Shown one piece after another: positions 406 through 15,967 of a stretch of DNA of 18,204 nt. The stretch covers positions 1 through 18,204 of the forward strand of contig CADBSZ010000013.1 of the NCBI GenBank assembly GCA_902797525.1. The letters are read 5' to 3'. This DNA is from an uncultured Ruminococcus sp. (lineage in GTDB: Bacteria; Bacillota; Clostridia; Oscillospirales; Acutalibacteraceae). Every line of letters begins with the position of its first letter. The first letter of the stretch is position 1. The translations under genes were made by a program, and so were the position numbers. The notes beneath the pieces are model-generated. The model was given only the letters and a program-made list of their open reading frames with translations, ran no database searches and was not told the origin of the DNA.

Positions 406-498
406 GTTATCGTTCCTTTCGGGATTTTTTCAGGATTTTGTGTATCATAAGCATATAAACAGAAAAGCGCGGTTTCAAAAATCTTTATAACCCATCTT

Positions 499-527
499 AT
501 TATAAAACTTTTTCACAGGTATTTCAA
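499..527 (-). promoter_or_regulatory. Sigma-A-type promoter of the fumarase gene
   Basis: On the minus strand TTGAAA (527-522) is followed after exactly 17 bases by TATAAT (504-499), giving a start site near 492 and an untranslated leader of about 87 bases before the ATG at 405. The match is 5 of 6 and 6 of 6 to the housekeeping consensus. It is predicted from sequence only. Confidence 0.65.
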
Positions 528-550
528 TCTTTTTTATTTTGTGCTACAAT
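522..550 (+). promoter_or_regulatory. Possible extended -10 promoter of the two-component genes
   Basis: TGCTACAAT ending at 550 is an extended -10 element (TG, one base, then TACAAT with 5 of 6 matches). The -35 position 17 bases upstream (TTTCAA, 522-527) is poor, as is often the case for extended -10 promoters. It sits on the same bases as the -35 box of the opposing fumarase promoter, so the two would be back to back and could interfere. The start codon at 586 is about 30 bases downstream of the predicted start site. Confidence 0.45.
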
Positions 551-585
551 AAAATAGATGAATCAAAAGAAAAGGACGGACGCAT

Positions 586-1263: not shown

Positions 1264-2785
1264 CAGAAAAATGCTGCCGCTGCGCGCAAAGCTGCTCGGC
1301 TATTTTCTCGCGTTCGGCACAATTATCTTAATTATTCTGTGGGTGTTCCAGTCGTTCTTTCTCAAGCCGCTCTACACCATGTCAAAATCCATGCGTGTGC
1401 AGCAGGGCGCGAGCCGCATTTCGCAGTCGCTGCAATACAACAAAAACGTGTGGGCGACCGTTGACAACGTGGCGAACAAAAACGCCTTGTCGGTGTATTT
1501 GTATGAGGTCGGCAGCGGCGCGCCGCAGTTTTCAAAGGAATGCTCCTACGAAAACCCTGCCATCCGGCTGAACATCGAATACAGCGACGTGCTGCGCTAT
1601 TATGAAACCACCGTCGACAACGGCGGCAAGTACAGCTTTACCGACGCGAACGACATTGAGGACATCATCCGCAAGCGCGAGGAGATTTTTCAGCAGTCCG
1701 CCGCCAGCGCCGACAGCGTGCAGGCGCGCGTTCACCAGTCGAGCATGGAGCAAAACGAGAGCCTGGTGTTCACCTACATTGTCAGCCGCAACGACGGGCG
1801 GCAGACGTTTGTGATTATCACCTCGTCTGTTACGCCGCTGAACAACACCATCGATGTCATCCGCAACCAGATGATTTTGGTGTCGGTGGTGTTTGTGCTG
1901 CTGTCGCTGCTGTTCTCGGTTTATGCCAGCCGCCGCATCGCCAAGCCGATTGCCCAAACCAACAAGGCGGCAAAGGAGCTGGCGAAGAAGAACTATGACA
2001 TCGACTTCAACGCCAGGGGTTATCTTGAGGTGGAGGAGCTGAACAACACCCTCAACTACGCCAAAACCGAGCTGGCGGCCACCGAAAAGCTGCAGCGCGA
2101 GCTGATTGCCAACATTTCGCATGATTTGCGCACGCCGCTGACCATGATTACGGGCTACGGTGAGGTAATGCGCGATTTGCCCGGGGAAAACACGCCCGAA
2201 AATATCCAAATCATCATCGACGAGGCGTCGCGCCTTTCCACGCTTGTTAACGACCTGCTCGACTTGTCAAAATTACAGTCGGGCGCTTTGCAGGCGGAGA
2301 AAAAGGAGTTTTGCCTGACCGACAGCGTCAGGGCGATTTTTGAGCGATATGCAAAGCTCATTGAGCAGGACGGCTTTAACATTACCTTTGAAAGCAAGGA
2401 GGACGTTTTCATCAACGCCGACGAGCTGCGGATTTCGCAGGTGCTTTACAATCTGGTGAACAACGCCGTCAACCACGCCGGCGAGGACAAAACCGTTATC
2501 GTGACGCAGATTGTCAAGGACCGCCGCGTGCGCATTGAGGTCGCTGACCACGGCGAGGGCATTCCTGCCGACAAGCTACCCTACATTTGGGACAGATACT
2601 ACAAGGTTGACAAGGAGCACCGCCGCGGCGTTATCGGCTCGGGACTCGGACTTTCCATCGTCAAGAGTATTCTCGACGCGCACAACGCCCGTTACGGCGT
2701 GCGCAGCACTCCCGGCAAGGGAAGCACCTTCTGGTTTGAAATCAACGCCGTCAGCATTAAGCGGCGCAGAAAAAACGATAAATAA
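1250..2785 (+). CDS. Membrane sensor histidine kinase (HAMP, HisKA, HATPase)
   Basis: This is a 511-residue class I sensor kinase and the partner of the preceding regulator. The first transmembrane helix is about residues 14-36, an extracytoplasmic sensor of roughly 165 residues follows, and the second helix is about 207-226. A HAMP linker starts at SRRIAKPI. His291 in ISHDLRTPL is the phosphorylated histidine. The ATPase domain has the N box NLVNNAVNHAG (401-411), G1 DHGEGIP (433-439) and G2 GSGLGLSIV (463-471). The sensor domain is not recognisable to me, so the signal is unknown. The TTG start at 1250 is chosen because AGGAG lies 12 bases upstream and it overlaps the regulator; an ATG at 1271 is the alternative and would remove seven residues. 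A terminator follows the stop. Confidence 0.94.
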   Translation: MKRFDRKMLPLRAKLLGYFLAFGTIILIILWVFQSFFLKPLYTMSKSMRVQQGASRISQSLQYNKNVWATVDNVANKNALSVYLYEVGSGAPQFSKECSYENPAIRLNIEYSDVLRYYETTVDNGGKYSFTDANDIEDIIRKREEIFQQSAASADSVQARVHQSSMEQNESLVFTYIVSRNDGRQTFVIITSSVTPLNNTIDVIRNQMILVSVVFVLLSLLFSVYASRRIAKPIAQTNKAAKELAKKNYDIDFNARGYLEVEELNNTLNYAKTELAATEKLQRELIANISHDLRTPLTMITGYGEVMRDLPGENTPENIQIIIDEASRLSTLVNDLLDLSKLQSGALQAEKKEFCLTDSVRAIFERYAKLIEQDGFNITFESKEDVFINADELRISQVLYNLVNNAVNHAGEDKTVIVTQIVKDRRVRIEVADHGEGIPADKLPYIWDRYYKVDKEHRRGVIGSGLGLSIVKSILDAHNARYGVRSTPGKGSTFWFEINAVSIKRRRKNDK

Positions 2786-2790
2786 TATAA

Positions 2791-2827
2791 CCCACACACG
2801 CAGCGCAAGCCGGGTGTGTGGGTTTTT
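2791..2827 (+). terminator. Intrinsic terminator after the two-component genes
   Basis: CCCACACAC pairs with GTGTGTGGG across a GC-rich loop and is followed by TTTTT. It begins six bases after the kinase stop. The opposite strand also forms the hairpin, followed by a moderately T-rich tract, so it may stop the converging polysaccharide operon too. It shares 27 of 32 bases with the inverted repeat at 15927-15958. Confidence 0.8.
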
Positions 2828-2949
2828 ACTTTACAGGAAACTCCAATGTTTTGATCCCGCCGTTGCAGGAATGTCGCCGTACAATCTTTCTTTCCAAAGG
2901 CGGGTGAGAGTGCCCACCGGCACTTTTGTGCCATTCATTCAGGATGGGC
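2828..2949. other. Convergent intergenic region with inverted repeats, no gene recognised
   Basis: These 122 bases lie between two converging transcription units and hold no convincing coding sequence. CCCGCC (2856-2861) can pair with GGCGGG (2899-2904). GTGCC occurs at 2910-2914 and 2928-2932, and both copies can pair with the single GGCAC at 2919-2923, giving two mutually exclusive hairpins. The plus-strand version of the first is followed by TTTT and could be a weak terminator. I do not recognise an RNA family here. Confidence 0.3.
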
Positions 2950-3498
2950 TTATTGCTTTTGGTCGGCGATGAAGCCGTCAAGGCGCTTTTGCAGCGCGCT
3001 CCAAATTCCGTTTGCTTCATTGCGCGCTTTTTGCGTAATGCTGTCCGCTTCCTCCTTGGCGCTTTTTAACATGGCATCCGCCTTTTGCTTGGCTGCCAGC
3101 TCATATTCGGTGTGTTCGCGGCTCATGGCGTCGTACATTTCCTTAATTTTCGCAAGGTAATCGTCGGCTGCTTTTTGCGCCGACTCCATCACGCCGTTGA
3201 CGCGAACAGCCATTTCGGCAATCGAGCCGACCTCCGTGATGTCGGCGTCCCGTGCCGCGAGCTGCTTTTCCATGTCAGCCGCCTTCGCCTTGAGCGCTTC
3301 ATTTTCAGCGCTGAGAGACGCTGTCAGCTGCGTCAGTCGGTTCTTTTCCTCCACCGCCGCGGCAGCCTCGCTGAGCTTGCGGGTGAGCGTGTCGATGTCG
3401 CTTTTTTGCGATTGCAGCAGCATAATCAGCTGGTCTTTTCCCATGTTTTTATAATTTACGCCGGCTGCGGCAGCGTTTTCGTTTTGAAATAAAGCCAT
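2950..3498 (-). CDS. Coiled-coil protein, possibly DivIVA-like
   Basis: This 182-residue soluble protein is mostly helical. A charged coiled coil with alanine-rich heptads covers about residues 25-90, followed by a second helical region (about 92-180) rich in alanine, lysine and glutamate, including AKEEADSITQKARNEANGI. That C-terminal pattern resembles the tail of DivIVA/GpsB-type scaffolds, but the characteristic N-terminal DivIVA membrane-binding segment is not evident, so the family is a guess. There is no signal peptide or membrane helix. It is the last gene of the polysaccharide operon, 30 bases after the EAL gene, with a clear GGAGG nine bases before the ATG. A scaffolding or localisation role for the synthesis complex would fit the context but is inference. 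Confidence 0.75.
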   Translation of the reverse strand: MALFQNENAAAAGVNYKNMGKDQLIMLLQSQKSDIDTLTRKLSEAAAAVEEKNRLTQLTASLSAENEALKAKAADMEKQLAARDADITEVGSIAEMAVRVNGVMESAQKAADDYLAKIKEMYDAMSREHTEYELAAKQKADAMLKSAKEEADSITQKARNEANGIWSALQKRLDGFIADQKQ

Positions 3499-3528
3499 AA
3501 TCTGTGTCCTCCGTAGTGAAAAATTGTT

Positions 3529-5424
3529 TTATCGGAACGTGATGTTGCGCTCAACCGACGGTTCGTTTGCCGGGTTGGTTCTGGCGAGCAGATAGCCCTG
3601 AATATAATCGCACTCAGCCTCAACGGAAACCGTCATTTCTTCTTCGTTTTCAACGCCTTCGCACAGCGCCTGAATGCCGAGGAAGTGCGCCAGCTTTACA
3701 ATACCGCACAGCAGCTGCTTACCCTTTTCTTTGTTGGATTCGATAATCAGCTCACGGTCGATTTTGATAATGTCGATTGGATAATCGTTCAAATCCCTGA
3801 CGGACGAATAGCCGCAGCCAAAGTCATCCAGTGCGATACGGCAGCCGATTTGCTTGCAAACCGCGATGTTGTCAACAACCTGCTTTTGGCTTTCGGCAAG
3901 CGCGTCCTCGGTGATTTCAACCACCAGCTTGCCAATGTCAAAGTCATATTTTTTAACAATCGCCTTAAACCGCTCCGCAAAGTTTTCGTTTGAGAGTGTG
4001 ATGCGCGTCATGTTGCACGACAGCCAAAGGTTTTTCTTCGGCGTTTGTTTCCACTCCTGCAACGTGCGGCAGCATTCCTCGAGAATATAAAAGTCGAGTT
4101 CGTCAATCATCTCGGCGGTTTCGAGCATACGGATGTATTCCGTCGGCGGAATCACGCCCTCGTCCGGACTGTCCCAGCGCGACAGCGCCTCGGCGCCGCA
4201 CGCCGTTTTGCCTGTTCCGTCAAAAATGTACTGCACATACAGCCGGAACTCCTTTTCGTCCAGCGCGTCACGCAGCTTGTTTTTCAGACCGCGCACATAT
4301 TCCTCGCGCCTGAGCAGCTTTGCGTCGGCAAACACATAGGATTCTCCGGTTTCGCGCGCGTGATAAAAGCCGTGACGCGCATTAAATAACGCCTTTTCGC
4401 AGGGAATGTTCGGCGCGTCGAGGTGGAATACGCCTGCCTGAAAATGGATGTGATATTTCGTCATTACGTCGCTGTTAAAGCGGTTGAGCCGCGTGAGAAG
4501 CCGCTCGATGTATTCTTTCGCCTGCGCCTCAACGGGGGCCTCAAAGGCGAGGGCAAAGCGCCCGTCCGAAACACGCGCGCAAAAGTCGGCTTCGCCTGAT
4601 TCCGCCGCAATTTCGGAGGCGGCATAAATTTGAATCTCCTCCGAAACCGCCGCGTCGGCATATTGAAGAATTTGCTGAACGTCAATGCCGATATACGCGA
4701 TATAGTACAGCGCGCTCGAGGCGGGGGAGATGAAGTTGTGGTACCATTCCTCAAAATACAGACTGTTGCCGATGCCGGTGAGCGGATCTGCCAGCCGGTT
4801 TTCCTTCGCCAGCTTTTCTTTTTTGCGGCGCATGATGAGGATGATCACCAAAACGGCGCATAACAGCACGAGGCCGATGGCGGCAAACAGCAGCCAAAAG
4901 GGAAAATCGTTCGGAGAATTGTTTACCGCTGTTTCAACGGCAAGGCGCAGAATTTGCTCGGACGAGGCGGATTGCAGCGCCGAGGTGACGGTGTTGACCA
5001 AATCGTCGGACGCGATAGAGGTAAAGCCCACGCACAGTTCCACTTCTTCCTCGCCGTTGTTGTACGTAAGAATATGCACCTCGCCCGACAAAAAATCTAC
5101 ATCGCCCTTTGCGTGCGCCGAAACCAGCTCCACCTGCTTGTTTTTTGCCAGGCGGTATTGCTCGTTGGAGGTGCCGGAATTGATATAGGAAAAGTCGACG
5201 CCGCTGTCTTCTGAAATTTTCTTGTAGAGCTGCGGTAAAATGCCCTTATATTCCTTGGCGCGAACGTCGTAATATTCTATCGGGTACATGTCGGGATCGC
5301 CGGCAATATAGACGGTGTCTCCGTTTGTCGGTTCATCAACCGTATAAACCGCCGCGTGTGCGGCGACAGTTCCGAATATCAGCAGCACCGCGGCTGCAAA
5401 AATTGCTGTCAGTTTTAATTTCAT
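3529..5424 (-). CDS. Membrane c-di-GMP phosphodiesterase: truncated sensor domain, degenerate GGDEF, intact EAL
   Basis: This 631-residue protein has a signal peptide (about 1-24), an extracytoplasmic region (25-172) resembling part of a family 3 solute-binding domain, a membrane helix (about 175-198), a GGDEF-like domain (about 210-368) and an EAL domain (about 375-615). The GGDEF signature is replaced by SDGRF (286-290), so cyclase activity is not expected. The EAL domain keeps Glu412 of the EAL motif, Asn471, Glu503, Asp533-Asp534, Lys554, Glu589 and Gln609, which match the metal and catalytic residues of active c-di-GMP phosphodiesterases. It should hydrolyse c-di-GMP to pGpG at the membrane under control of an external signal. 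It starts 10 bases after the glycosyltransferase stop, with AGGGA before the ATG. Given the c-di-GMP riboswitch at the operon's front, it is a likely negative feedback element. Confidence 0.9.
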   Translation of the reverse strand: MKLKLTAIFAAAVLLIFGTVAAHAAVYTVDEPTNGDTVYIAGDPDMYPIEYYDVRAKEYKGILPQLYKKISEDSGVDFSYINSGTSNEQYRLAKNKQVELVSAHAKGDVDFLSGEVHILTYNNGEEEVELCVGFTSIASDDLVNTVTSALQSASSEQILRLAVETAVNNSPNDFPFWLLFAAIGLVLLCAVLVIILIMRRKKEKLAKENRLADPLTGIGNSLYFEEWYHNFISPASSALYYIAYIGIDVQQILQYADAAVSEEIQIYAASEIAAESGEADFCARVSDGRFALAFEAPVEAQAKEYIERLLTRLNRFNSDVMTKYHIHFQAGVFHLDAPNIPCEKALFNARHGFYHARETGESYVFADAKLLRREEYVRGLKNKLRDALDEKEFRLYVQYIFDGTGKTACGAEALSRWDSPDEGVIPPTEYIRMLETAEMIDELDFYILEECCRTLQEWKQTPKKNLWLSCNMTRITLSNENFAERFKAIVKKYDFDIGKLVVEITEDALAESQKQVVDNIAVCKQIGCRIALDDFGCGYSSVRDLNDYPIDIIKIDRELIIESNKEKGKQLLCGIVKLAHFLGIQALCEGVENEEEMTVSVEAECDYIQGYLLARTNPANEPSVERNITFR

Positions 5425-5434
5425 AGGCGGTCCC

Positions 5435-6865
5435 TTATTTCAAATTAATTTTTTGCCGCTGAATTTTGCCCCATTGCAGCTTTCTCTTTCTGTAGCCGAT
5501 GAATGCGGTTGCGCGCACCCACGCCATGATGAAGCGCAAAACGCTGATTTCAAAGGTGCACAGCAGCAGCGCCTTGAGCACATCGCGGAGAGTAACCTTG
5601 AGGTCGATGGTTTGTGTTCGCGCAAAAAAGGCGGTCATCGACATCACCGAGCCGAACAGCGCGTAAATGCCGAAAAACAACAGCATAAACGGCACGTTAA
5701 TCAGGTCGACAAGGAAGGCGAGAATCGTTGTGGCGATACCGAATATCTCGATAAACGGCGACAGCAGCTCATAAATCAAAAAGTAAAAATAGGAGATAAA
5801 GCTGGTTAAGCCGAATTTCGGATTTGCCAGCATAACGCGGTGCTTCCACATGGACTGGAACAAGCCGATGTGCCAGCGCCGGCGCTGTTTGCTGAGGTCC
5901 TTCAGGTTTTCGGGCACCTGCGACCAGCAGATGGCGTCGGTGGCGTAGCGAATGAGATAGGGCATGTTGTTGGAAACGCAGTAGTCGTGAAGCTTGACAA
6001 CAAGCTCCATGTCCTCGCCCATGGTCGTCGCGTCATAGCCGCCCGCGGCAACCACGGTGTCCTTTTTGAACAGTCCGAAGGCGCCCGAGATAATCAGAGA
6101 GCCGTTGAATTTATCAAAGAGAATACGCGACGCAAGAAAGGAACGGTCGTATTCAAGCACCTGCATGCAGGCGAGAAGATTGCGCGGCAGGCGGTAGTTG
6201 ATGACTCTGCCTTTTTCAATTTCAACGCTGTTGGACGGACGGACAGCGCCGCCGACCGCAACGACGTTTTCGTTTTCGAGCACGGGCTTGACAATCTTGC
6301 TCAGGGAATCGTATTGCAGCACCGAGTCGGCGTCAATGCAAATAAAGTAGGGATATTTGCAGGCGTTGATTCCCATGTTGAGAGAATCCGCCTTGCCGCC
6401 GTTTTTCTTTCGAATCAGCGTCAGGGGCACCTTTTGGGTTGCCGCCTCATACACAAATTCCACCGGCTGACAGTTGATTTTACGCTGTATCGGGCGGCGA
6501 ATCGGCAGCATGTCAAACGCCTCAATCAGCTTTGCCGAGGTTTTGTCGCCGGAGCCGTCGTCCACGACGATAATTTCATACAGCGGATAGTCGAGCGACA
6601 GCAAAGACTGCACGTTTTCAACAATCGTAACGTCCTCGTTGTACGCCGGCACGATGATGCTGATGGGAACATAGTGGTCTTTTAAGATAGTGTTTTTCAG
6701 TTTGTCCTGCTGCCGCTTGCGGAACAGCGAGGAAGAACCGGTAACAACGGAGATAAACAAAAAGGTGGAATAACCAATCAGATAGGCGACAAAGAAAAAC
6801 TCAACGCCTATTAAAAACACCTTGATGAATTCAAACACCGTGTCGTTAAATAAAAAATATCTCAT
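5435..6865 (-). CDS. Processive family 2 glycosyltransferase, polysaccharide synthase
   Basis: This 476-residue membrane protein resembles cellulose, chitin and poly-N-acetylglucosamine synthases. One or two N-terminal membrane helices (about 12-42) are followed by a GT-A catalytic domain with VDDGSGD (Asp102, Asp103), IDADS (Asp178-Asp180), GED (283-285, catalytic base region) and QRRRW (327-331), the QxxRW motif of processive enzymes. Several C-terminal helices lie between about 353 and 455. It should add sugars from a nucleotide sugar to a growing chain and help export it; neither sugar nor linkage can be read from the sequence. No PilZ domain is present, unlike bacterial cellulose synthase, so direct c-di-GMP activation is unlikely. 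The ATG overlaps the TGA of the preceding HEAT gene by four bases (ATGA) and is preceded by AAAGGAGG. Confidence 0.92.
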   Translation of the reverse strand: MRYFLFNDTVFEFIKVFLIGVEFFFVAYLIGYSTFLFISVVTGSSSLFRKRQQDKLKNTILKDHYVPISIIVPAYNEDVTIVENVQSLLSLDYPLYEIIVVDDGSGDKTSAKLIEAFDMLPIRRPIQRKINCQPVEFVYEAATQKVPLTLIRKKNGGKADSLNMGINACKYPYFICIDADSVLQYDSLSKIVKPVLENENVVAVGGAVRPSNSVEIEKGRVINYRLPRNLLACMQVLEYDRSFLASRILFDKFNGSLIISGAFGLFKKDTVVAAGGYDATTMGEDMELVVKLHDYCVSNNMPYLIRYATDAICWSQVPENLKDLSKQRRRWHIGLFQSMWKHRVMLANPKFGLTSFISYFYFLIYELLSPFIEIFGIATTILAFLVDLINVPFMLLFFGIYALFGSVMSMTAFFARTQTIDLKVTLRDVLKALLLCTFEISVLRFIMAWVRATAFIGYRKRKLQWGKIQRQKINLK

Positions 6866-7953
6866 GTTGCCGCCCTCCTTTCGCTCAGCTTTTTGCGGTC
6901 AAAGCGATAACGCATCATTTCGCCCGCATAGCGGTCGTTTCCTTCAAATACATCCAAAAAGTCAGCGTATTCCAGTCCCAAATTTTCCAGCGCCTGCGAG
7001 GCATTGAGACGGACATACCAGTTGCGGCTGCTGAGGTTCTTTTTGAGCACCTCAATGGTGCGCTCTCCCGGGTATGAGGCCAGCGCGAAGCAGGTGATAG
7101 AGGTGTATTCCCAGTGCATTTCGTCCTCGTGCTCGGCGTATTTCATCAGCTGCTCATAGGCAGGCGCATAGGGGTATCGTCCCAGATAGCGGATGGCGCA
7201 GAAGTGAATTTCACTGTCATGCTCCTCACGGAGCAGTCCGAGCATTCTCTCCTGAAAATCGCCCGATGAAAAACGGATATAGTCAAGAATCGCCTGCTGA
7301 ATATTGGGAGAATAGTCCTGCAGCTGCGACCACAAAAGCTCGTTGAGTTCATTTTTGTCGCCGGTAAAGCTCATCAAGCCGTCGGTCAGCAGCTTTTTGT
7401 TATGATAAAACCCGGCGAGGTCAATGATTTTCAGCGCGTCCGCAACGTTTTGGCTGACGCCCATGGAATAAAACGCGTTCAGCGCGTTTTCGCGGCAATA
7501 AACGGACGGCTTTTCCAGCAAGTCAACCAGAATACGGTTAATTTGCGGCAAATCCTCACCTAAAAACAGGCGGTAGCGTGCGATAACATACGGAAAATAT
7601 GCCATTTGCAGCTCATCTCTGCGGCTGTAGCGGTTGGCGAGCGCAATAAAAACATATTCCATTTTGCGCAGATATTCCATAATGTCGTCGGGGTATTCCC
7701 TGTAAAGAATCTCCAGCGACTTGTCAAACGCCGTCAGCTCGCGCACGCGCGTCAGTCGTTTGAGCATCAGGATTCGGTGCCGGTCTTCAAGCGCCTCTTT
7801 GCCGAATTGGTCTTTGATCAGGTCGATATAATAAAGCCGGCTTTCTTCGGTTTCTTTGTCGTTGTGACTGAACAAAAAGATGCAGACAATATTAAAGCCA
7901 ATCATCGCCAGACACACGGCAAGATATACGTAAACCAGTATCTCAATCTTCAT
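6862..7953 (-). CDS. Membrane-anchored HEAT-repeat protein
   Basis: This 363-residue protein has a single N-terminal membrane helix (about 5-29) and a cytoplasmic region made of repeated helix pairs. Later repeats are recognisable as HEAT-like, for example HFCAIRYLGRYPYAPAYEQL, YTSITCFALASYPGERTIEVL and WYVRLNASQALENLGLEYA. Such solenoids bind other proteins. It overlaps both neighbours (11 bases with the glycoside hydrolase gene, 4 bases with the glycosyltransferase gene), which implies translational coupling and balanced production with the synthase. I infer a structural subunit or regulator of the synthase complex; no catalytic motif is visible. GGAG lies before the ATG. Confidence 0.85.
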   Translation of the reverse strand: MKIEILVYVYLAVCLAMIGFNIVCIFLFSHNDKETEESRLYYIDLIKDQFGKEALEDRHRILMLKRLTRVRELTAFDKSLEILYREYPDDIMEYLRKMEYVFIALANRYSRRDELQMAYFPYVIARYRLFLGEDLPQINRILVDLLEKPSVYCRENALNAFYSMGVSQNVADALKIIDLAGFYHNKKLLTDGLMSFTGDKNELNELLWSQLQDYSPNIQQAILDYIRFSSGDFQERMLGLLREEHDSEIHFCAIRYLGRYPYAPAYEQLMKYAEHEDEMHWEYTSITCFALASYPGERTIEVLKKNLSSRNWYVRLNASQALENLGLEYADFLDVFEGNDRYAGEMMRYRFDRKKLSERRAAT

Positions 7954-10126
7954 CTTGATTTCTCCAGCGCTCCTGCAAAACGTAATAGGAGCTCTTCAGC
8001 CTTTCGTGATAGGTCACATGATTGTTCCAGCCCTGAAGCCGGAAGGGTTTAAGCTCTGCTCTTCGGGGGGAGCCGCCCTGCGTGGCAAGACCCACCCAAA
8101 TTTCATTCACCTGGATGTATTCAACGCCGTAATTTTCATAGTAATCGTCATGAATCATCCTCAGCGACGGGTCGGCAAAGTTGAGCAGCTGCCACGGCAG
8201 CTTGATTTCCACAAAGCCGTCGCCTGCCATAAAGTCCGCCAGCGAGTTAAAATCCGGGCTGTCGGGATTGGCGTTGCCGTAGGTCAGCTTGCCGGTTTCG
8301 AACACCTCGGCAGGCGCCTGCAGGTTGTTGTATAACAGCGGCGTTGCCGTTTGCAGAATCATGTCGATGTTGACAAACTTCGGTGAATCCTTTGCGGGAA
8401 TATTGTCCTTGAGATAGGCGTTAAATTCGTAAACGTTTTCCGAATAGTTGCTTCGGAGCACCTCATAGCGCTCCTGCACACGCACGCGGCTGTTCTTTTT
8501 GCCCTCCAGCTCGATGATAAAGTCTATCGCGCGGTCAAACAGGATATTCTTATCCTCATAATAGCTGCTGCCGGTTTTCGGCGTGATGTCAAGGGGAATA
8601 TAGATGTTGTCGCTGTCGATATTCAAGCCGTCTTTTTTTACCATGAAATAAACAAACTTTTCGTCATATTTCATTGAAAGCTGCATGTCGCCGCGTTCGG
8701 CAACAACATCCGCGTCCTTCCACTCGGCGTTGTCGCCGTCTACATAGCAGACAGATTGCTTTTCGCCGGGGTCAAAGGACAAAAGGCCGAAATACTGTTC
8801 GTTGGTTTGGTAGTCCGACCAGTAGGGCGTTCGCTTGAGGTTGACCGCGTACATGGTGTTCCACGTGCGCTTGAACCACTCGTCCTGCCACGCGAACACG
8901 CAGCAGCCCGAACAGCCTGCCGCCTTGATGTCCTCATAGCAGTCGATAATCGCCTTGCCCTGATCCTTTTCGGACATGTTGCCCTGGTTTCTGCCCATGT
9001 TCATTTCGCGCTGCGCCATGCCGCGTCCGGTTGAAACGCCGAACTCGGAAATCACAACCGGCATGGTGTGGTGCCGCGTCAGCATCGACAGATATGCGCG
9101 GTAGGTGTTGAGCACGCCGTCGGTGTAGTAGGGCGTGAGGTCGTCAAAGCCTAAGGCGCTCCAGTCGGAGATATACGCCAGATAATCGGGATAGTACGGA
9201 TAGACGTGATAGGACACAAACTGGCCCGACAGAAAATCCTCGGTTGTTTTAATGTGCTCCACGTCCACCTCGGCGCATTTCATGAAAAAGCGCTCGATGT
9301 CCTCGGGATATTCAAACGGGTCGGTGGTCGGCCAGTTGGAAAACGCAACGGGCTTTTGCGTTTTATAGCGGTTGGATTCGTATTCCACCACCCTGTCGCC
9401 AACCTCAGCCAGCATCGCCTCAAAGGGCGTTGCTTCGTCACAGGTGTAAAAATACTTGCCCTTGTAAACGTCGGCGCCCTCCACGTCTGCAAACTGCTCG
9501 TTGGTGTAGGCAACCGTCACGTCCTCCCACTCTACGCCGAGAATGTAGCCGATAACCCACTGCGAAATATCGTGCAGATAAAAGCCGGAGCCTGCGGACG
9601 CCATTCTGCCCAGCGAGATTTTTTTGTTGCCGTGGATAACGTCGAGCATGGTGCGGCAGTCGGACAAAAAGCGCTCCTTAAACTCCGGCGCAAAGCTGTC
9701 GCGGTGAGAGTTCTGCGTGTAGTCGTTTACCCACACGCCGTGCATGAGCCACAGCGGATGGTCGTTGTTTTTGTTGTATTCATAGAATGCGTCGTAAAAA
9801 ACGTCCTGCTGCACGGTGTAGATACGGATGGTGTTGGCGCCCATCTCCTGAATGTACGCAAACCAGCGCATATAGGTTTCTTTGTCGATGGCGAAGTCGG
9901 TTGACCATTCGCCCGGCTTGCCGCTGCCCATGTTGACGCCCTTGATTTCAAACGGCTCGTAATCCTCGCCGTTGAACATCAAAATTTTGTCGCCCTCGGT
10001 GCGGACAAAGGTGGTCGGCACATCGCCGGGGTTGAGGTCGATATACCAGCCGAAGCGGTAATACACCGTATCGAGTCCCAATGCAAGCAGCACCACGATA
10101 CATACAATAATAATAAATTTCTTCAT
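7943..10126 (-). CDS. Membrane-anchored or secreted TIM-barrel glycoside hydrolase-like protein with C-terminal beta domain
   Basis: This 727-residue protein begins with a signal peptide or anchor (about 3-20) without a lipobox. Residues about 40-460 look like a clan GH-A barrel: FEIKGVNMGSG at the first strand, GANTIRIYTVQQD, the candidate acid/base region GYILGVEWED (Glu199 or Glu201), and the candidate nucleophile Glu361 in VVISEFGVSTGRG. A C-terminal domain (about 465-727) with alternating strands, such as MQLSMKYDEKFVYFMVKKDG, resembles a sugar-binding or DOMON-like fold. It probably trims or remodels the exported polysaccharide outside the membrane, as hydrolases in cellulose and PNAG operons do. 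The substrate is unknown and I cannot name the GH family. GGAGACGCT precedes the ATG; the end overlaps the HEAT gene by 11 bases. Confidence 0.82.
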   Translation of the reverse strand: MKKFIIIVCIVVLLALGLDTVYYRFGWYIDLNPGDVPTTFVRTEGDKILMFNGEDYEPFEIKGVNMGSGKPGEWSTDFAIDKETYMRWFAYIQEMGANTIRIYTVQQDVFYDAFYEYNKNNDHPLWLMHGVWVNDYTQNSHRDSFAPEFKERFLSDCRTMLDVIHGNKKISLGRMASAGSGFYLHDISQWVIGYILGVEWEDVTVAYTNEQFADVEGADVYKGKYFYTCDEATPFEAMLAEVGDRVVEYESNRYKTQKPVAFSNWPTTDPFEYPEDIERFFMKCAEVDVEHIKTTEDFLSGQFVSYHVYPYYPDYLAYISDWSALGFDDLTPYYTDGVLNTYRAYLSMLTRHHTMPVVISEFGVSTGRGMAQREMNMGRNQGNMSEKDQGKAIIDCYEDIKAAGCSGCCVFAWQDEWFKRTWNTMYAVNLKRTPYWSDYQTNEQYFGLLSFDPGEKQSVCYVDGDNAEWKDADVVAERGDMQLSMKYDEKFVYFMVKKDGLNIDSDNIYIPLDITPKTGSSYYEDKNILFDRAIDFIIELEGKKNSRVRVQERYEVLRSNYSENVYEFNAYLKDNIPAKDSPKFVNIDMILQTATPLLYNNLQAPAEVFETGKLTYGNANPDSPDFNSLADFMAGDGFVEIKLPWQLLNFADPSLRMIHDDYYENYGVEYIQVNEIWVGLATQGGSPRRAELKPFRLQGWNNHVTYHERLKSSYYVLQERWRNQDED

Positions 10127-10152
10127 AGCGTCTCCGTTAAAAAAGAGTAGCT

Positions 10153-11622
10153 TTAGTTTGCGTTTTCAATAAACTTCTTGACGCGCGATTCGGCGCTGTA
10201 CTGTGCGAGCACGTCGATGTCTTTATCCAAAAACTTCGCGCGTTCATGAATAAAGCCCTTTAGCTGCGCCACAGCTTCCTCGTAGCTGTGAAGATTTCTT
10301 TCCTTCGGCCACAGCAGCTCATCGTTGTCAAAGGTGTAGCCCCAGCGCTCAAAATTGCGGTCAACCGCGGCGCCGAGATAGGCGATGGTGTCGTCGATGT
10401 ATTCGTCAAGATACTCGTCGGACAAAACGCCCTTGCGCAAATCGCGGTAACGCTCAACAATGCGGTTGGTGAAGTCCTCGTTTTTGATGAGCATCCAATA
10501 CCACGGAGCGTTAATCAGGCGAAAGTCGTCAAGCGGAATCGGCTGTTCCTGATAATTGTCGCAGGAGTTGTTGAAATCCCAAATGCACATGCCGTATTTT
10601 CCGCTCTTATCCTTGTAGATATAGGTAGAATAGCCGCCCGCGTCATAGTTCAGGGTGAATTCGTTGATGATAAAGTAATCCACAAAGGATTCGACGTTAA
10701 TTGTCTTTTTGTAGCCGAATTCATCGCTGTCAAAGTCGTAGGAATAAAGGGATTTTTCGAATGCCGAGAAATCCTTGGTAATCGACGCCGAAAGCTCCGG
10801 CGTAAGGTTTTTGGGACCGGGATATTCGATGTTGACGCCGCTGGTTTTGTTCAGACGGTAAACATATTTGGTGAAGTTGTTAATATCCGCCTCCGAGGTT
10901 CTGTCCATTCTCAGAAGATAGCCGGAGTAGGTGTTGTCTTTTTTGTCGACCGACAGCGGCAGTCTTGCGCCGTTCTTGCCGGCGGTTATGGTCTCCGTCA
11001 TGACATAAACGCCCTCGTATTCGCCGTTGATAAACAGCTCGCAAAAGCGGACGTTGGGGGCATAGGACATAATCTCGCCGCCGATGTTGTACCACATGTA
11101 GTTGCGGATGAGGGTTTTGTCAAGATACGGGCCGTGCAGCACCCATTCGCTGTGCGCCGCCATTCCCATCACGCTCTGGTTGTTGCTGTTTCCCTCGCTG
11201 TCAATCAGCTTGATTTTATATCCGAGCTTGTCAAAGTAGCGTGAGGAGTTGCCGTGCACGTGAACGGTCGCAAGGCTCTCGAGCGTCGGCGCGTCGCCGA
11301 GGTGATTGTTGGTTTCGTCGTGGTCGGTGATTTTGACGGTTGACACAATGCGGTCGGAGCCGTCAGCCGCCGTTGTTCGCTCGTGGCTGTGGTTCTTTTT
11401 GTCAATCACCGGCTTGCCGGGAATATCCTCGTCTGTTTCAATTTGAACCAGCGGAAGATGGGTACAAAATTTTTCGTCGCCGTGGTCGGCACAGTCCGCC
11501 TTTTTTGCTGCGGTCAGGTGCTGGTGCACCCGTCCCTTTTCCTGACGGACAAACAGCGTGGCGGTGAAGCCGGTAATCAACAGCGCGACGCAAAGAATGA
11601 TACCGATTATTCTGTTTTTCAT
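10153..11622 (-). CDS. CotH-family protein kinase, exported
   Basis: This 489-residue protein has an N-terminal signal or anchor (about 4-25) and a CotH domain. Family landmarks are LPLVQIETDEDIPGKPVID (57-74), VHGNSSRYFDKLGYKIKL (122-139), WVLHGPYLDKTLIRNYM (160-176), CELFINGEYEGVYVMTE (194-210) and the metal-binding region CIWDFNNSCDN (Asp349). Bacillus CotH is an atypical kinase that phosphorylates spore coat proteins; many clostridial relatives are secreted and have unknown targets, and some occur in cellulosomal proteins. The position in an operon with VTC and DUF4956 genes follows a pairing I recall from other bacterial genomes, but the joint function is not established. Start support is AGGAAAGGCGGTGG before the ATG. 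It lies 26 bases ahead of the glycoside hydrolase gene. Confidence 0.9.
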   Translation of the reverse strand: MKNRIIGIILCVALLITGFTATLFVRQEKGRVHQHLTAAKKADCADHGDEKFCTHLPLVQIETDEDIPGKPVIDKKNHSHERTTAADGSDRIVSTVKITDHDETNNHLGDAPTLESLATVHVHGNSSRYFDKLGYKIKLIDSEGNSNNQSVMGMAAHSEWVLHGPYLDKTLIRNYMWYNIGGEIMSYAPNVRFCELFINGEYEGVYVMTETITAGKNGARLPLSVDKKDNTYSGYLLRMDRTSEADINNFTKYVYRLNKTSGVNIEYPGPKNLTPELSASITKDFSAFEKSLYSYDFDSDEFGYKKTINVESFVDYFIINEFTLNYDAGGYSTYIYKDKSGKYGMCIWDFNNSCDNYQEQPIPLDDFRLINAPWYWMLIKNEDFTNRIVERYRDLRKGVLSDEYLDEYIDDTIAYLGAAVDRNFERWGYTFDNDELLWPKERNLHSYEEAVAQLKGFIHERAKFLDKDIDVLAQYSAESRVKKFIENAN

Positions 11623-11691
11623 TCAACCACCGCCTTTCCTGATAATGGGGTGTTTTGGGCAGTAATACTTTCTTCTGATTAAATGCGTCAT
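11623..11691 (-). CDS. Possible 22-residue cationic small protein between deacetylase and CotH genes
   Basis: A 23-codon ORF fills most of the 85-base gap between the deacetylase stop and the CotH start. It begins MTHLIRRKYYCPKHP and ends in a glycine triplet. Its TGA directly abuts the CotH ATG (TGAATG), and AAGGGCGG lies about ten bases before its own ATG. The peptide is basic, with one cysteine and no signal peptide. It may be a real microprotein, a leader that couples translation into CotH, or chance; conservation is the only test. Confidence 0.28.
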   Translation of the reverse strand: MTHLIRRKYYCPKHPIIRKGGG

Positions 11692-11707
11692 CCAAAACGC
11701 GCCGCCC

Positions 11708-13123
11708 TTAATCGCCAATGCAATCCGAGAAGGGCTCTCCCGTCATGCGGGCCACGCGCCTTACCACCGCGGATTTGCGGTTCAGACCGGCCTCACGGAC
11801 AAAATAATTGGTCATGCTGATGCTGACATTTTCGCTGTCTCCGGCAAAGAGCAGCTGATAGCCGCACTTCAGCCACGCCTGGTCAGACAGCTCCGTTCTT
11901 TTGGAATAGGGATACGCCATCACAAGCGGCTGGATGTTGAAATATTGACGGAAGTTGCGCGCGGTATCGGAATAGTCCTTTTGCGCAATCGGCAAAAAGT
12001 TTTCCAGCGTGTCGCCGTCCTTGGTGCACGCGCCGCACCGTCCGTTGTGTGAAAAATAATGCTGCTTATCCGTATGGCTGACGATTTCAATTTCGCCGGA
12101 AGCCGCCATTTCGGCAAGCTCCTGCCAGGTGCAGTACGGCGCCTCGCTTTTTTGGCGCGCGTCGGGCGCGTTGGTCGCGTTGTCAATTTCATAGCCAATC
12201 AGCGCCAGCGACGCTGTCATCTGATATTTTTTGAGCAGCGGCCACGCGCGTTTATAAACGCCGTATTTGCCGTCGTCAATCGTAATCAAAACGGGTTTTT
12301 CGGGCATGGTGCCCTTGCCGTTGAGGTAATCAATCAGCCGCGCGGCGGTAATGCTTGTGTAGCCGTTTTGCTTGAGCCACTTCAAATCGCTTTCAAATTC
12401 GTCCGCATAAACAGCGTACTCGTCAAAGGCGACGCCGCTGTCCAAATCCTCCTGCGTGACAAATTCATGGTACATCAAAATCGGCACGCCGAACACGGTT
12501 CCCGGCTGATAACCCGTTTGCTGCGGCGCGCTGAGCTCGCTGCGGAATTCTCCTCTGACAGCGCGCACGCGATAGAACCAGTCTGTTTTTTTGTCCTCGT
12601 TTGCGTCATAAAGGAACGGTTCGTCGCGGGTTGCCACAGGCTGATAGTCGCCGTCGCGCGAGGAAGCCCGCAAAAATTCATAGGTGCAGTTTTCCTGCGG
12701 CTTCACGGAAACCACAACGGTGTATTTGTCCTTGGCGGTAACGGAGGTGATAACCGGCGTTTCGGGCGCCTTCACCTCCTCGGCCGACTTGCTGCCGGGC
12801 ACGTTCAGGGTGCACTCCTGCGCCGTTGAAACGCCGTTTTTGCCGATGATTTCGAGCTTGTAAAGATAGGTGCCGCCGTCGCTGACAAAGCGGTCGGAAT
12901 AGCTTGTTTCGCCGCTGCCGGAGTCGAAGATAAATTTGAAGTCGGCGTCCTTCGGGCTGCGGCGGTAAAGCCGGTAGGTTTCGGCTTCGCCGCTTTGCGA
13001 CCAGCGGATAACCGCCGCGCCGTTTTCAAGAGTGGCGCTGAGCGTTTCCGGCGCTGCGGGCTTTTGACCGCAGGCGGTCAGCAAACAGCAAACCAGCAAA
13101 AGCGCCGCTAAAATCCGTTTCAT
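11708..13123 (-). CDS. Lipoprotein polysaccharide deacetylase with FN3-like domains
   Basis: This 471-residue lipoprotein starts MKRILAALLLVCCLLTACG with lipobox LTAC and lipidated Cys18. Two fibronectin III-like modules follow (about 25-110 and 118-203), then a NodB-type deacetylase domain (about 212-430). The domain starts VPILMYHEF and has ITIDDGKYGVY (Asp283, Asp284 as catalytic base and metal ligand) and SHTDKQH (His350, His355; spaced five apart, where many members have four), and YPYSK near the third motif. It probably removes acetyl groups from an exported polysaccharide at the outer face of the membrane. The ATG at 13123 is preferred over an in-frame ATG at 13171 because it begins the signal peptide, follows the upstream stop by one base and has GAGGTG at proper distance. 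Confidence 0.9.
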   Translation of the reverse strand: MKRILAALLLVCCLLTACGQKPAAPETLSATLENGAAVIRWSQSGEAETYRLYRRSPKDADFKFIFDSGSGETSYSDRFVSDGGTYLYKLEIIGKNGVSTAQECTLNVPGSKSAEEVKAPETPVITSVTAKDKYTVVVSVKPQENCTYEFLRASSRDGDYQPVATRDEPFLYDANEDKKTDWFYRVRAVRGEFRSELSAPQQTGYQPGTVFGVPILMYHEFVTQEDLDSGVAFDEYAVYADEFESDLKWLKQNGYTSITAARLIDYLNGKGTMPEKPVLITIDDGKYGVYKRAWPLLKKYQMTASLALIGYEIDNATNAPDARQKSEAPYCTWQELAEMAASGEIEIVSHTDKQHYFSHNGRCGACTKDGDTLENFLPIAQKDYSDTARNFRQYFNIQPLVMAYPYSKRTELSDQAWLKCGYQLLFAGDSENVSISMTNYFVREAGLNRKSAVVRRVARMTGEPFSDCIGD

Positions 13124-13124
13124 A

Positions 13125-13802
13125 TCAGTTGGACACCTCGTCGTTCTGCATGACAATGTTGACGTATTCAATGCCGCCGAGCTTGTAAATCGCGTCGGTC
13201 AGGTTGCCGTCCTGTTCCTCAACGCGTCTGAGCTGACGGGCGGTGATTTCGTAAATGAACTCAACGTTGTCCTCGTCCGTGTTTCTGACGCGCAAAATCG
13301 CCTTGCGCTTGAACACCGAGAACATATGCGCCTGAACCGCGGACTGGCGGCTGCGCGAGCCCCTGATGATGACAAGCATTCGGTTGTCGCTTTTGATGAG
13401 TCCGAGCACCAGCAATATCAGGAAGGTTATCACGCTGCCGACAGCGGCAACCACATAATCGCCAACGCCGCAGCAAATGCCGGCGATAACCGTCCAGAAA
13501 ATATAGATGGTATCGCGGCTGTCCTTAATCGCGGTGCGGAAACGCACAATCGACAGCGCGCCGACCATACCGAGAGAAAGCGCGATGTTGTTGCCGATGA
13601 CCGTCATCACCGTGCCGGTCAGCACCGTCATCACCACCAGCGAGGCGTTAAACTTTTTGCTGTAGATGGTTCCTTTGTGGGTAATCATGTAGGACACGAA
13701 AATAAACAAGCCCAAAACGGCTGAAACGAGAATATTAAAGATGATACTCTCAAGGCTTAATTCGCCCGTTGTCTGAAAAAGGTTAAATAGCTTATCTTTC
13801 AT
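13125..13802 (-). CDS. DUF4956 integral membrane protein
   Basis: The 225-residue product has three or four membrane helices in its first half (about 19-41, 51-73, 97-117 and 119-137) and a soluble C-terminal domain of about 90 residues. The stretch SLGMVGALSIVRFRTAIKDS and the following RDTIYIFWTVIAGICCG are the signature of the DUF4956 family. The family has no established biochemical role; members commonly sit beside VTC-domain genes and sometimes CotH genes. The soluble part after about residue 140 has an alternating strand-helix pattern suggestive of a ferredoxin-like regulatory fold, which is inference. The ATG at 13802 is used because GAGGAG lies eight bases before it; a TTG six bases earlier would be too close to that site. 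Twelve bases separate it from the VTC stop. Confidence 0.9.
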   Translation of the reverse strand: MKDKLFNLFQTTGELSLESIIFNILVSAVLGLFIFVSYMITHKGTIYSKKFNASLVVMTVLTGTVMTVIGNNIALSLGMVGALSIVRFRTAIKDSRDTIYIFWTVIAGICCGVGDYVVAAVGSVITFLILLVLGLIKSDNRMLVIIRGSRSRQSAVQAHMFSVFKRKAILRVRNTDEDNVEFIYEITARQLRRVEEQDGNLTDAIYKLGGIEYVNIVMQNDEVSN

Positions 13803-13814
13803 TTTCAACTCTCC

Positions 13815-14510
13815 TCAAAGGTGGGTTTGATAAGCGTTTTGTCTTGCCAGCACATATTTGCTGACGGACAGCTCGCTTTTGTCAATACAATTAATCATGC
13901 TCTGAATGTAATTCAGAAGGAAACCGTTGAACTTGACCTCCAGCACAACATTATACGGGTCAAGAACGGGATTCATGTTCAAGTGCTCCGAAAATAAATC
14001 AAAGCAGCTTTCGGTGGAGACGACGCGGTTGTCAAAGGTGACGCGGATTTTGTTTTCCTTGGCGATGAACGCCTTGCGGTTGTACTGCACAATCGTCCGC
14101 GGAATATACGCGCGCGCTTTCATCATTCCGTAGATTTCGGCGGCAAACGGCTCCCGATAGCTCAGCAGCGCCGAATAGTCGCCGTCAATCAGCCTCAGCG
14201 CGTCCTCGCGCGTGACGCGCAGCGAACGCTTCAATTGGCGCGCGCCCTGCTTTTGCTTCATTTCCAGCATGGCGAAATCCTGCTTGGGATCGTAGCACCG
14301 CAGGCGGATTTTTCTTCGCAGCTCCACGCCTGCCTGCTTTTCAAAAAAATCCGTATCATACGGCGTATCAAAATACAGGGAGCGAATCATGTAGCCGTGC
14401 ATACCGTTGTGCGAATCCTGCATCATCACCTTTTCCAGCCTGGCGCTGGTGCTGCGGAACTCGGCTATACTAATCAGAAATTTCTTTTCTTCACGCAATA
14501 CCTTATTCAA
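13815..14510 (-). CDS. VTC-domain protein (polyphosphate polymerase-like), TTG start
   Basis: From the TTG at 14510 the product is 231 residues and is almost entirely one VTC domain. Features include REEKKFLIS at the N-terminus, SLYFDTPY (44-51), the basic strand RRKIRLRCY (65-73), LEMKQK (Glu83, Lys85), KRSLRV (94-99), VQYNRKAF (141-148), RVTFD (156-160), LEVKF (Glu191, Lys193) and SKYV (Lys218). In yeast Vtc4 the equivalent basic tunnel binds polyphosphate and an acidic residue binds metal; bacterial members are annotated as polyphosphate polymerases mostly by similarity. The open frame extends upstream to an ATG at 14639, but that part encodes the riboswitch and terminator and would be nearly leaderless, so it is not protein coding. 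AAGGTCGGTGA precedes the chosen TTG; a TTG at 14498 is the alternative. Confidence 0.86.
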   Translation of the reverse strand: MNKVLREEKKFLISIAEFRSTSARLEKVMMQDSHNGMHGYMIRSLYFDTPYDTDFFEKQAGVELRRKIRLRCYDPKQDFAMLEMKQKQGARQLKRSLRVTREDALRLIDGDYSALLSYREPFAAEIYGMMKARAYIPRTIVQYNRKAFIAKENKIRVTFDNRVVSTESCFDLFSEHLNMNPVLDPYNVVLEVKFNGFLLNYIQSMINCIDKSELSVSKYVLARQNAYQTHL

Positions 14511-14525
14511 TCCATCACCGACCTT

Positions 14526-14565
14526 AAAAAGAAAATGCCGGCCGCAATCATCAAATTGCGGCCGG
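14526..14565 (-). terminator. Intrinsic terminator forming the riboswitch expression platform
   Basis: CCGGCCGCAA and TTGCGGCCGG form a perfect 10-bp stem with an 8-base loop (two inner pairs possible), followed by ATTTTCTTTTT. It lies between the aptamer and the VTC start, so it controls readthrough into the operon. Its 5' arm begins with bases that also close the aptamer, which makes aptamer and terminator mutually exclusive. Confidence 0.88.
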
Positions 14566-14636
14566 TCAATCATACGTTCATAAAACGCTGCAGATACCTT
14601 AGCTTTGCGTCCCTGCCTTTCAACAGGTTTGCCTTT
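14564..14636 (-). promoter_or_regulatory. c-di-GMP-I (GEMM-I) riboswitch aptamer
   Basis: The minus-strand leader reads AAAGGCAAACC, a stem CCTGTT/GGCAGG capped by a GAAA tetraloop, then GGGACGCAAAGC (14613-14602). These are the invariant elements of the GEMM-I aptamer, including the GNRA loop that docks into the second helix. A second hairpin CGTT-TTATG-AACG (14587-14575) sits inside a helix that GGT (14598-14596) and ACC (14566-14564) can close. 5' GGC (14633-14631) can pair with GCC at 14562-14560, which lies within the terminator arm. Ligand binding should therefore block the terminator and turn the operon on. Family assignment rests on motif recognition without a covariance-model search. 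Confidence 0.88.
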
Positions 14637-14650
14637 CATTATTCTATTAT

Positions 14651-14679
14651 ATTATACATAATAAAATGCCTAAAGTCAA
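14651..14679 (-). promoter_or_regulatory. Strong sigma-A-type promoter of the polysaccharide operon
   Basis: TTGACT (14679-14674), a 17-base spacer and TATAAT (14656-14651) match the housekeeping consensus at 11 of 12 positions. The predicted start site is about 14644-14643, seven or eight bases before the riboswitch aptamer and some 133 bases before the VTC start. The strength of the promoter fits a design in which control is exerted after initiation by the riboswitch. Confidence 0.82.
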
Positions 14680-14727
14680 GAAAAAACCAGTAGGAGAAGG
14701 CAAAAATATTTATTTTTATCACCATTT

Positions 14728-14823
14728 TTAACTGCCGGCATCAATCTGCGCGCGGCTTTTGCTGCTTGCGGCACATCCTGCCAACGCCGCCATCAGTATG
14801 ACGCTGTTGATAATCCTTTTCAT
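14728..14823 (-). CDS. 31-residue lipoprotein-like small ORF, possibly a remnant
   Basis: An ORF of 31 codons plus stop encodes MKRIINSVILMAALAGCAAS followed by eleven polar residues. It is a complete lipoprotein signal peptide with lipobox LAGC but almost no mature part. No Shine-Dalgarno is visible before the ATG. It lies between the prephenate dehydratase stop and the operon promoter on the same strand. It could be a decayed lipoprotein gene, a very small lipopeptide, or chance. Confidence 0.25.
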   Translation of the reverse strand: MKRIINSVILMAALAGCAASSKSRAQIDAGS

Positions 14824-14874
14824 GAAACGGTAAAAGATTATCTTTATCATAAGGGATTTTTACAGCCCCTTCAT

Positions 14875-15786: not shown

Positions 15787-15814
15787 AAGCTCACCGCCTT
15801 TAAATGATAGTAGC

Positions 15815-15843
15815 ATTATACCACATGTTCACCGTATTGTCAC
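15815..15843 (-). promoter_or_regulatory. Sigma-A-type promoter of the lipoprotein dehydratase gene
   Basis: GTGACA (15843-15838), a 17-base spacer ending in TGG, and TATAAT (15820-15815) form a near-consensus promoter. The predicted start near 15808 excludes the upstream in-frame ATG at 15816 and supports translation from 15786. Confidence 0.72.
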
Positions 15844-15920
15844 TATACATTTTCAAGGATTAAGGAGTTCCAATGGTCATTTTCCTTGTTTCATGCGGTG
15901 TAAATTTAATTGATTTTTCC

Positions 15921-15958
15921 AAAAAACCCACACACTCAGCCAAAGCCGAATGTGTGGG
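15921..15958 (-). terminator. Intrinsic terminator after the dockerin gene
   Basis: On the minus strand CCCACACATTCGGC pairs with GCTGAGTGTGTGGG (14 positions, two G-T wobbles) around a short TTTG loop and is followed by six T. It begins nine bases after the dockerin gene's TAA. The inverted repeat is closely related to the terminator at 2791. Confidence 0.85.
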
Positions 15959-15967
15959 ATTGGTTCA

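Follow-up and report, generated by a model that had tools for sequence, protein, structure and literature searches.

The minus strand of an 18,204-nucleotide stretch from an uncultured Ruminococcus sp. (contig CADBSZ010000013.1 of assembly GCA_902797525.1, positions 1 to 18,204; hereafter the window) carries nine closely spaced genes behind a cyclic di-GMP (c-di-GMP) riboswitch of the GEMM-I class. We conclude that this operon is real, conserved and riboswitch-controlled, and that it probably makes an exopolysaccharide. The best explanation, in which we place considerable confidence, is a c-di-GMP-induced, synthase-dependent exopolysaccharide operon with feedback from its own EAL-domain protein. 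The leader and the genes, read downstream from the promoter, are the following:

14651-14679, minus strand: sigma-70-type promoter (TTGACT-17-TATAAT), 11 of 12 consensus positions, a consensus match only
14554-14643, minus strand: predicted c-di-GMP-I (GEMM-I) riboswitch aptamer (RF01051, 57.6 bits; also our own covariance model)
14538-14565, minus strand: predicted intrinsic terminator whose 5' arm is the aptamer 3' strand (putative ON-switch expression platform)
13815-14510, minus strand: VTC-domain protein of the polyphosphate-polymerase family, TTG start (PF09359, 137.4 bits against a cut-off of 23)
13125-13808, minus strand: DUF4956 membrane protein with MgtC-like C-terminal domain (PF16316, 44.6 bits against 30.6)
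11708-13123, minus strand: polysaccharide deacetylase, predicted lipoprotein, an accessory gene (PF01522, Polysacc_deac_1, 54.9 bits)
10153-11622, minus strand: CotH-family atypical kinase with N-terminal hydrophobic segment (PF08757, 209.4 bits against 23.8)
7943-10126, minus strand: clan GH-A-type glycosidase (GH) with N-terminal membrane segment and C-terminal beta domain (GH72 profile below cut-off; predicted fold)
6862-7953, minus strand: HEAT-repeat protein with N-terminal membrane segment (HEAT_2, 40.4 bits)
5435-6865, minus strand: GT2 synthase with D, DxD, GED and Q-R-R-R-W motifs and no PilZ match (GT2, 93 bits)
3529-5424, minus strand: membrane protein with degenerate GGDEF (27.7 bits) and intact EAL motifs, a predicted c-di-GMP phosphodiesterase (PF00563, 197 bits)
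2950-3498, minus strand: DivIVA-like coiled-coil protein, no Pfam family above cut-off

All nine genes follow the leader on the minus strand and reach down to position 2950. Neighbouring genes are separated by, or overlap by, at most 30 nt, with the single exception of 85 nt between the deacetylase and CotH genes (11623-11707); the HEAT gene overlaps its two neighbours by 11 nt and 4 nt. The one-strand gene row that a sequence-only reading of the window had described is confirmed by this spacing, and its gene list is borne out by the domain matches, with the GH72 match below cut-off. The open frame of the VTC gene reaches back to 14639, inside the aptamer. Because the VTC proteins of relatives start at the alignment column of the TTG at 14510, we assign the gene to 13815-14510, and aptamer and terminator therefore constitute a true leader. 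For the deacetylase, the ATG at 13123, which is followed by a predicted lipoprotein signal, is the most likely start.

The same reading had described a GEMM-I-like leader with a strong promoter and a terminator, and each of these elements was recovered. Infernal with the Rfam model RF01051 yields one match in the window, with 57.6 bits against a gathering threshold of 35 (E 3.3e-9) and covering the full model (1-87), and the aptamer is predicted to bind c-di-GMP and to control expression. Seven bases separate it from the promoter. The terminator-like stem comprises 12 pairs (14565-14538, minus strand) followed by CATTTTCTTT, and in a longer version of the stem 14 paired bases of the 5' arm lie within the aptamer. 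Promoter and terminator were called by consensus scans only, and the terminator count of the window is not above that of shuffled sequence. The draft genome to which the window belongs (1.5 Mb, 247 contigs, 81% complete) has no other RF01051 match. Among 31 aptamers from this operon, which were picked as Rfam matches and are thus biased towards the structure, 15 of 22 consensus pairs show changes on both sides in some sequence. Our own covariance model R1 was trained on these 31 aptamers, that of the window among them.

Among named genomes, relatives of the GH alignment are encoded in at least 588 of at least 596 stretches. The best 80 loci, from species-representative genomes, were taken; since they were picked by GH, the counts describe how often GH brings the rest. 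Core genes were assigned per locus from phmmer gene maps. The complete core VTC-DUF4956-CotH-GH-HEAT-GT2 lies on one strand in 66 of the 80 loci, and 64 of these keep it contiguous and in the order given; the two others are L128, with an over-long called frame, and L157, where HEAT and GT2 lie 4.7 kb away. Thirteen of the 14 loci without the whole core lose genes at the locus end, and L153 lacks VTC and DUF4956 despite enough sequence. An EAL gene follows GT2 within 1.5 kb in 48 of the complete loci, and a homologue of the coiled-coil protein follows EAL in five of the 80 (L078-L082). The core is conserved in records named Bacillota, Mycoplasmatota and Actinomycetota, including Paenibacillus, Blautia, Eisenbergiella, Holdemania, Eggerthellaceae and a Tenericutes metagenome-assembled genome (MAG); many of the records are MAGs, in which a misplaced contig is possible, and L064 and L112 are the same contig. 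In the window's own family, 14 of 300 genomes have a GH match, the window included. Inspection of the other 13 neighbourhoods revealed the core order of the window in five (L062, L063, L064, L066, L070), only a second operon type in seven, on the stretches read, and only GH fragments in one (G029). A gene order unique to the window's genome would have refuted the sequence-only reading; the order instead recurs both in its family and further afield.

The second operon type, seen in eight family genomes (loci L065, L066, L067, L068, L069, L071, L072, L073 and L074), encodes a protein of about 750-840 residues, a GH-like protein of about 1000 residues, HEAT, GT2 and two GH homologues. HEAT was recognised in some of these operons, and the 1000-residue protein matches GH weakly. 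The first protein has an HD domain in G200, the one genome tested, where core type and second type stand back to back. Inspection by hand placed a GEMM-I upstream on the same contig and strand, within about 3 kb, in G200, G050, G002, G137 and G066; for G104, G246 and G169 there was none among the matches listed.

At least 250 nt of sequence precede VTC in 67 loci, and in 33 of these a c-di-GMP riboswitch lies before the first gene (GEMM-I in 29, GEMM-II in four). A GEMM-I was counted only if R1 also matched in the locus DNA, since position mapping alone misplaces some matches from other contigs. By genome, RF01051 matched in 33 of 40 and 15 of 40 in two batches. It is the sole listed match in 24 of the 29 genomes with GEMM-I before the operon, a number that may be overstated as at most 82-84 first-look candidates were scored per genome. 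A search with R1 over 86 sources hit 33, all already Rfam-positive, and found no GEMM-I that Rfam had missed. GEMM-II was sought in 40 genomes whose locus has VTC and no GEMM-I ahead of it (L121, L125 and 38 that offer 250 nt or more of upstream sequence) and matched in five, directly before VTC in four (L120, L124, L128, L154) and elsewhere in the genome in Paenibacillus agaridevorans. Measured against the called VTC frame, the end of the aptamer lies anywhere from 56 nt inside it to 210 nt ahead of it in 32 of the 33 loci; in L106, where the deacetylase is the first gene, the aptamer ends 1630 nt ahead of this frame. On a tree of 68 GH proteins, built with a fast algorithm, the supported branches force at least two separate changes for GEMM-II, and the tree indicates that this class was acquired at least twice. 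Since both GEMM-I and GEMM-II precede VTC, two unrelated RNAs have come to provide c-di-GMP control at the same position, and as comparative evidence this argues strongly that such control is what matters. Control by c-di-GMP, proposed before for the window, has now gained support from conservation, from the presence of two riboswitch classes and from leaders of the ON type.

The direction of the switch follows from its terminator. Of 36 leader entries, 34 have a hairpin that draws on the aptamer 3' strand and is followed by a T-rich tail. Under a strict terminator-overlap rule 32 of 35 leaders pass, compared with 0-2 of 35 in ten rounds of shuffling the 90 nt downstream. The four GEMM-II leaders have 7-10 paired bases of the terminator arm within the aptamer core. 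Because the aptamer 3' strand is the terminator 5' arm, ligand-bound aptamer and terminator should be mutually exclusive, and the structure therefore points to an ON switch. That the riboswitch instead acts as an OFF switch or is non-functional, with an unregulated leader terminator, we regard as very unlikely. Half of the relatives do without a riboswitch, and a type I riboswitch of C. difficile is described, in the portion of the source available, as repressing PPEP-1 at high c-di-GMP, both of which would suit this alternative. It is opposed by the sharing of one strand between aptamer and terminator in 32 of 35 leaders, by the arm bases in the cores of all four GEMM-II aptamers and by the use of two structurally unrelated aptamers for one ligand at the same site; no search for anti-terminators was made.

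Several observations weigh against a c-di-GMP-induced exopolysaccharide operon as we describe it. Neither riboswitch class was found before VTC in 34 of the 67 loci. In the window's family, GEMM-I precedes VTC in three of the six operon-bearing genomes, the window included. Three genomes of the same genus (G074, G185, G259), 99-100% complete, match neither GH nor GEMM-I, and the operon is therefore patchy within the genus. Two of the 36 leader entries (one contig held twice) have no good T-tail, and three of the 35 leaders fail the strict terminator rule. The deacetylase occurs in only 10 of the 66 complete loci, which speaks against deacetylation as a core step. The GH of L063 (3704-5866, plus strand, genome G053) has glycine in place of the second glutamate, the candidate nucleophile that is present in 81 of 81 others, and may be inactive. 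Finally, the polymer, its transport and the enzyme activities are predictions from the genes.

The EAL protein was compared in 45 rows, namely 44 of the 67 loci and the window, in which its GGDEF site is degenerate. Three short or cut sequences (L116, L136, L143) were dropped, of which L136 and L143, both riboswitch-free, look degenerate in EAL. All 27 riboswitch operons have intact EAL motifs, compared with 12 of 18 riboswitch-free ones; the six degenerate rows (L126, L135, L127, L142, L134, L145) have lost the catalytic aspartate pair wholly or partly. This association is suggestive only, because the six include two sister pairs on the tree. It would fit a feedback that retains an active phosphodiesterase in operons whose RNA senses c-di-GMP, and in the six riboswitch-free operons the degenerate EAL protein may be a c-di-GMP receptor that replaces the RNA sensor. 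A source of c-di-GMP in the organism is plausible because further GGDEF matches lie on another contig of the window's MAG.

Processive GT2 synthases carry the motifs D, DxD, (T/G)ED and Q(Q/R)xRW. Six of the seven motif residues are conserved in 73 of 73 GT2 sequences and the seventh, D102, in 72 of 73, which upholds the polysaccharide-synthase core of the earlier reading. The best NCBIfam match of GT2 is PgaC/IcaA (TIGR03937), at 148.2 against a cut-off of 422.3, and that of the deacetylase, in which four candidate active-site residues are present, is PgaB (TIGR03938), at 124.4 against 321.9 and over positions 5-231 of 621 of the profile. Cellulose synthase (TIGR03030) reached 40.8 against 699.1, and the PilZ domain that is expected in cellulose synthase gave no match to GT2 in the Pfam search. 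One could argue from the two best matches (148 and 124 bits) that the operon makes a known polymer, cellulose-like or like poly-N-acetylglucosamine (PNAG), and that VTC, DUF4956 and CotH are phosphate-storage or signalling genes that merely share its promoter. In line with this, VTC-DUF4956 pairs of the wider sample described below stand without CotH within 3.5 kb in 61 of 107 cases, contig ends not being allowed for. We consider this reading unlikely, as the scores are far below the cut-offs of 422 and 322, the deacetylase is missing from 56 of 66 complete loci, and in 64 of the 66 loci chosen for the whole core the synthase genes and VTC, DUF4956 and CotH form one contiguous row of fixed order.

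PNAG and cellulose, which the sequence-only reading had named as examples, were rejected as the polymer on these scores and on gene content. A pel cluster was rejected as well, with no PelF, PelG or PelD family among the Pfam and NCBIfam matches of the nine genes. For GH, two candidate active-site glutamates are conserved (E199 in 80 of 81, E361 in 81 of 81), and the GH72 profile (PF03198) scores 24.3 against a cut-off of 25.9. A search of the predicted model (pLDDT 73.5) with Foldseek ranked GH157 first, followed by beta-glucuronidases, GH158 and GH5; Gel4 and Gas2, which we take to be GH72 enzymes, came lower. The GH157 match had an E value of 6e-13 with TM-scores of only 0.33/0.43 and a root-mean-square deviation of 25, and a weak GH157 profile match lies around the second glutamate (E 0.0028). 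The model thus suggests a GH-A-type barrel with a hint of beta-1,3-glucan; the superposition is poor and nothing more is safe.

The interest of the operon rests on its phosphate module, VTC, DUF4956 and CotH, which is unexplained. In a sample of 196 genomes of the class, VTC lies within 1.2 kb on the same strand for 107 of 111 DUF4956 matches, and DUF4956 stands beside 107 of 119 VTC matches. All 92 genomes with DUF4956 also have VTC, and of 14 named control genomes three match, the same ones for both families. CotH lies within 3.5 kb of 46 of the 107 pairs, and VTC occurs in 65 of 70 genomes with CotH compared with 31 of 126 without, kinship not being corrected for. Based on this pairing and co-occurrence we propose that VTC and DUF4956 make up a polyphosphate unit and that an exported CotH is its working partner. 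The VTC protein is a predicted polyphosphate polymerase; no solved VTC structure allowed its residues to be placed, and Vtc2 (3g3o) matched only at E 0.14, with nothing at E 0.01. The predicted structure of DUF4956 (pLDDT 77) is that of a helical membrane protein, and its ferredoxin-like C-terminal domain has the MgtC C-terminal domain as top Foldseek match. The structural alignment (VIA-align) covers residues 139-226 only and is tied among ferredoxin-like folds, and the MgtC profile (PF02308) scores 24.1 against a cut-off of 31.4. The window's genome has a second VTC-DUF4956 pair (G000:C26:1342-2548, plus strand) and a second CotH (G000:C119:11189-11941, plus strand) outside the operon.

In CotH, D327 and D349, presumably the catalytic aspartates, are conserved in 72 of 73 and 73 of 73 sequences. 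The profile has a match of E 2.1e-7 to the solved spore coat protein H (5jd9) in the N-terminal part; NFD and WDYD of 5jd9 line up with the two aspartates solely in a second segment, which is not significant (1.4 bits). An N-terminal hydrophobic segment is present in 72 of 72 CotH and 3 of 69 VTC proteins; kinase and polymerase are therefore probably on opposite sides of the membrane, with the predicted CotH kinase domain outside the cell. CotH could, alternatively, be a protein kinase that regulates the machinery, as the excerpted text on pel proposes for that system (regulation by phosphorylation; Whitfield 2020, PMC7112168), and the polymer could be free of phosphate. The 5jd9 match and the two conserved aspartates are in keeping with such a kinase, and we treat it as a possibility, albeit one we do not favour: the hydrophobic segment would place the kinase domain in surroundings poor in ATP, and neither GT2 nor EAL is expected to have its catalytic domain outside the cell. 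The same scarcity of ATP is what suggests polyphosphate as donor for an exported CotH, a bold guess with evidence on both sides. Four of the five CotH genomes without VTC keep a CotH with hydrophobic segment, the fifth CotH being a weak 26-bit match, so an exported CotH has no strict need of VTC, which counts against polyphosphate as donor; the strong co-occurrence of CotH and VTC stands on the other side. The full proposal, that VTC and DUF4956 are a bacterial counterpart of the eukaryotic VTC complex, make polyphosphate and pass it out through the cytoplasmic membrane as the donor with which CotH phosphorylates the new exopolysaccharide, the whole system being turned on by c-di-GMP through the riboswitch, is in our view rather improbable.

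For the c-di-GMP-induced exopolysaccharide operon itself, these elements would combine as follows. Raised c-di-GMP would let RNA polymerase read through the leader terminator. GT2, with the HEAT protein as its putative membrane partner, would polymerise and export the glycan, which the exported GH would trim or release and which, in a minority of operons, the lipoprotein deacetylase would de-acetylate. VTC and DUF4956 would form a membrane-bound polyphosphate-polymerase unit and, together with the exported kinase-like CotH, might phosphorylate the polymer or the proteins that anchor it; in the sequence-only reading, too, the polymer may carry or require phosphate. The EAL enzyme would lower c-di-GMP again as negative feedback. 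The role of bacterial VTC/DUF4956 and the substrates and donor of exported CotH kinases are now testable.

Two further genes of the window lie upstream of the operon. The one at 15968-18187 (minus strand) encodes a carbohydrate-binding protein of the Cthe_2159 type; its type I dockerin suggests that the organism has a cellulosome-like system. A prephenate dehydratase domain (PF00800, 207 bits) follows an apparent lipoprotein signal (LIGCSNQ) at 14875-15816 (minus strand), which suggests an exported dehydratase or a re-used solute-binding domain.

That no system with this gene set had been characterised, as stated before, holds for its function as far as we could see; judging from the portions of the texts available, nearly the same set is in print as NELoc-2 and its VTC/DUF4956/CotH part beside pel. 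NELoc-2 of C. perfringens was described in 2010 with VTC, 'tubulin/FtsZ', CotH, a hypothetical protein of 685 residues, HEAT and a GT2 'chitin synthase' in the same order (PMC2879425), and a re-annotation in 2024 named the polyphosphate polymerases and added a polysaccharide deacetylase (PMC11677781). The 'tubulin' genes, for membrane proteins of 226 and 222 residues in the DUF4956 position, are by size and position DUF4956, we infer. The likeness to the window operon rests on gene descriptions rather than sequences, and the available text of both papers mentions no riboswitch. Unlike the window operon, NELoc-2 has VTC and its partner duplicated around a resolvase, and sigma/anti-sigma factor genes in the locus. 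An RNA-seq study of 2016 reported the first VTC and 'tubulin' genes of NELoc-2 down in vivo, and a dgc gene too (PMC4983038), a joint decrease that would fit activation by c-di-GMP and does not give the mechanism.

We found no report of riboswitch control for an operon of this type and no paper joining a c-di-GMP riboswitch with a polyphosphate polymerase, in a search that drew on a minority of the papers it turned up and left subscription journals and preprints outside. The Gram-positive pel clusters described in 2020, in which an accessory CotH-PPP-DUF4956 set stands beside pel, resemble the window operon in their link to c-di-GMP and in having an exopolysaccharide synthase beside VTC (the polyphosphate polymerase), DUF4956 and CotH; they differ in their pelDEADAFG core with the polymerase PelF and lack the HEAT-GT2-GH core (PMC7112168). 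In B. cereus c-di-GMP acts on pel via PelD, and the word riboswitch is absent from the available main text of that paper. The PNAG systems (pga/ica) resemble the window operon in their GT2 synthase and PgaB-like deacetylase domain, whereas here the scores are below cut-offs, the deacetylase is accessory and VTC, DUF4956, CotH, HEAT and GH are added. In C. difficile, GEMM-I and GEMM-II likewise lie upstream of clostridial surface genes, although there the regulated genes, as far as the accessible text goes, encode cell-wall proteins and a protease, and each class stands before different genes (PMC7865049). Overall, genes that were scattered and poorly understood, in disease-associated loci of C. 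perfringens and at the margins of pel clusters, come together in one widespread c-di-GMP-controlled operon of gut Clostridia and their relatives.

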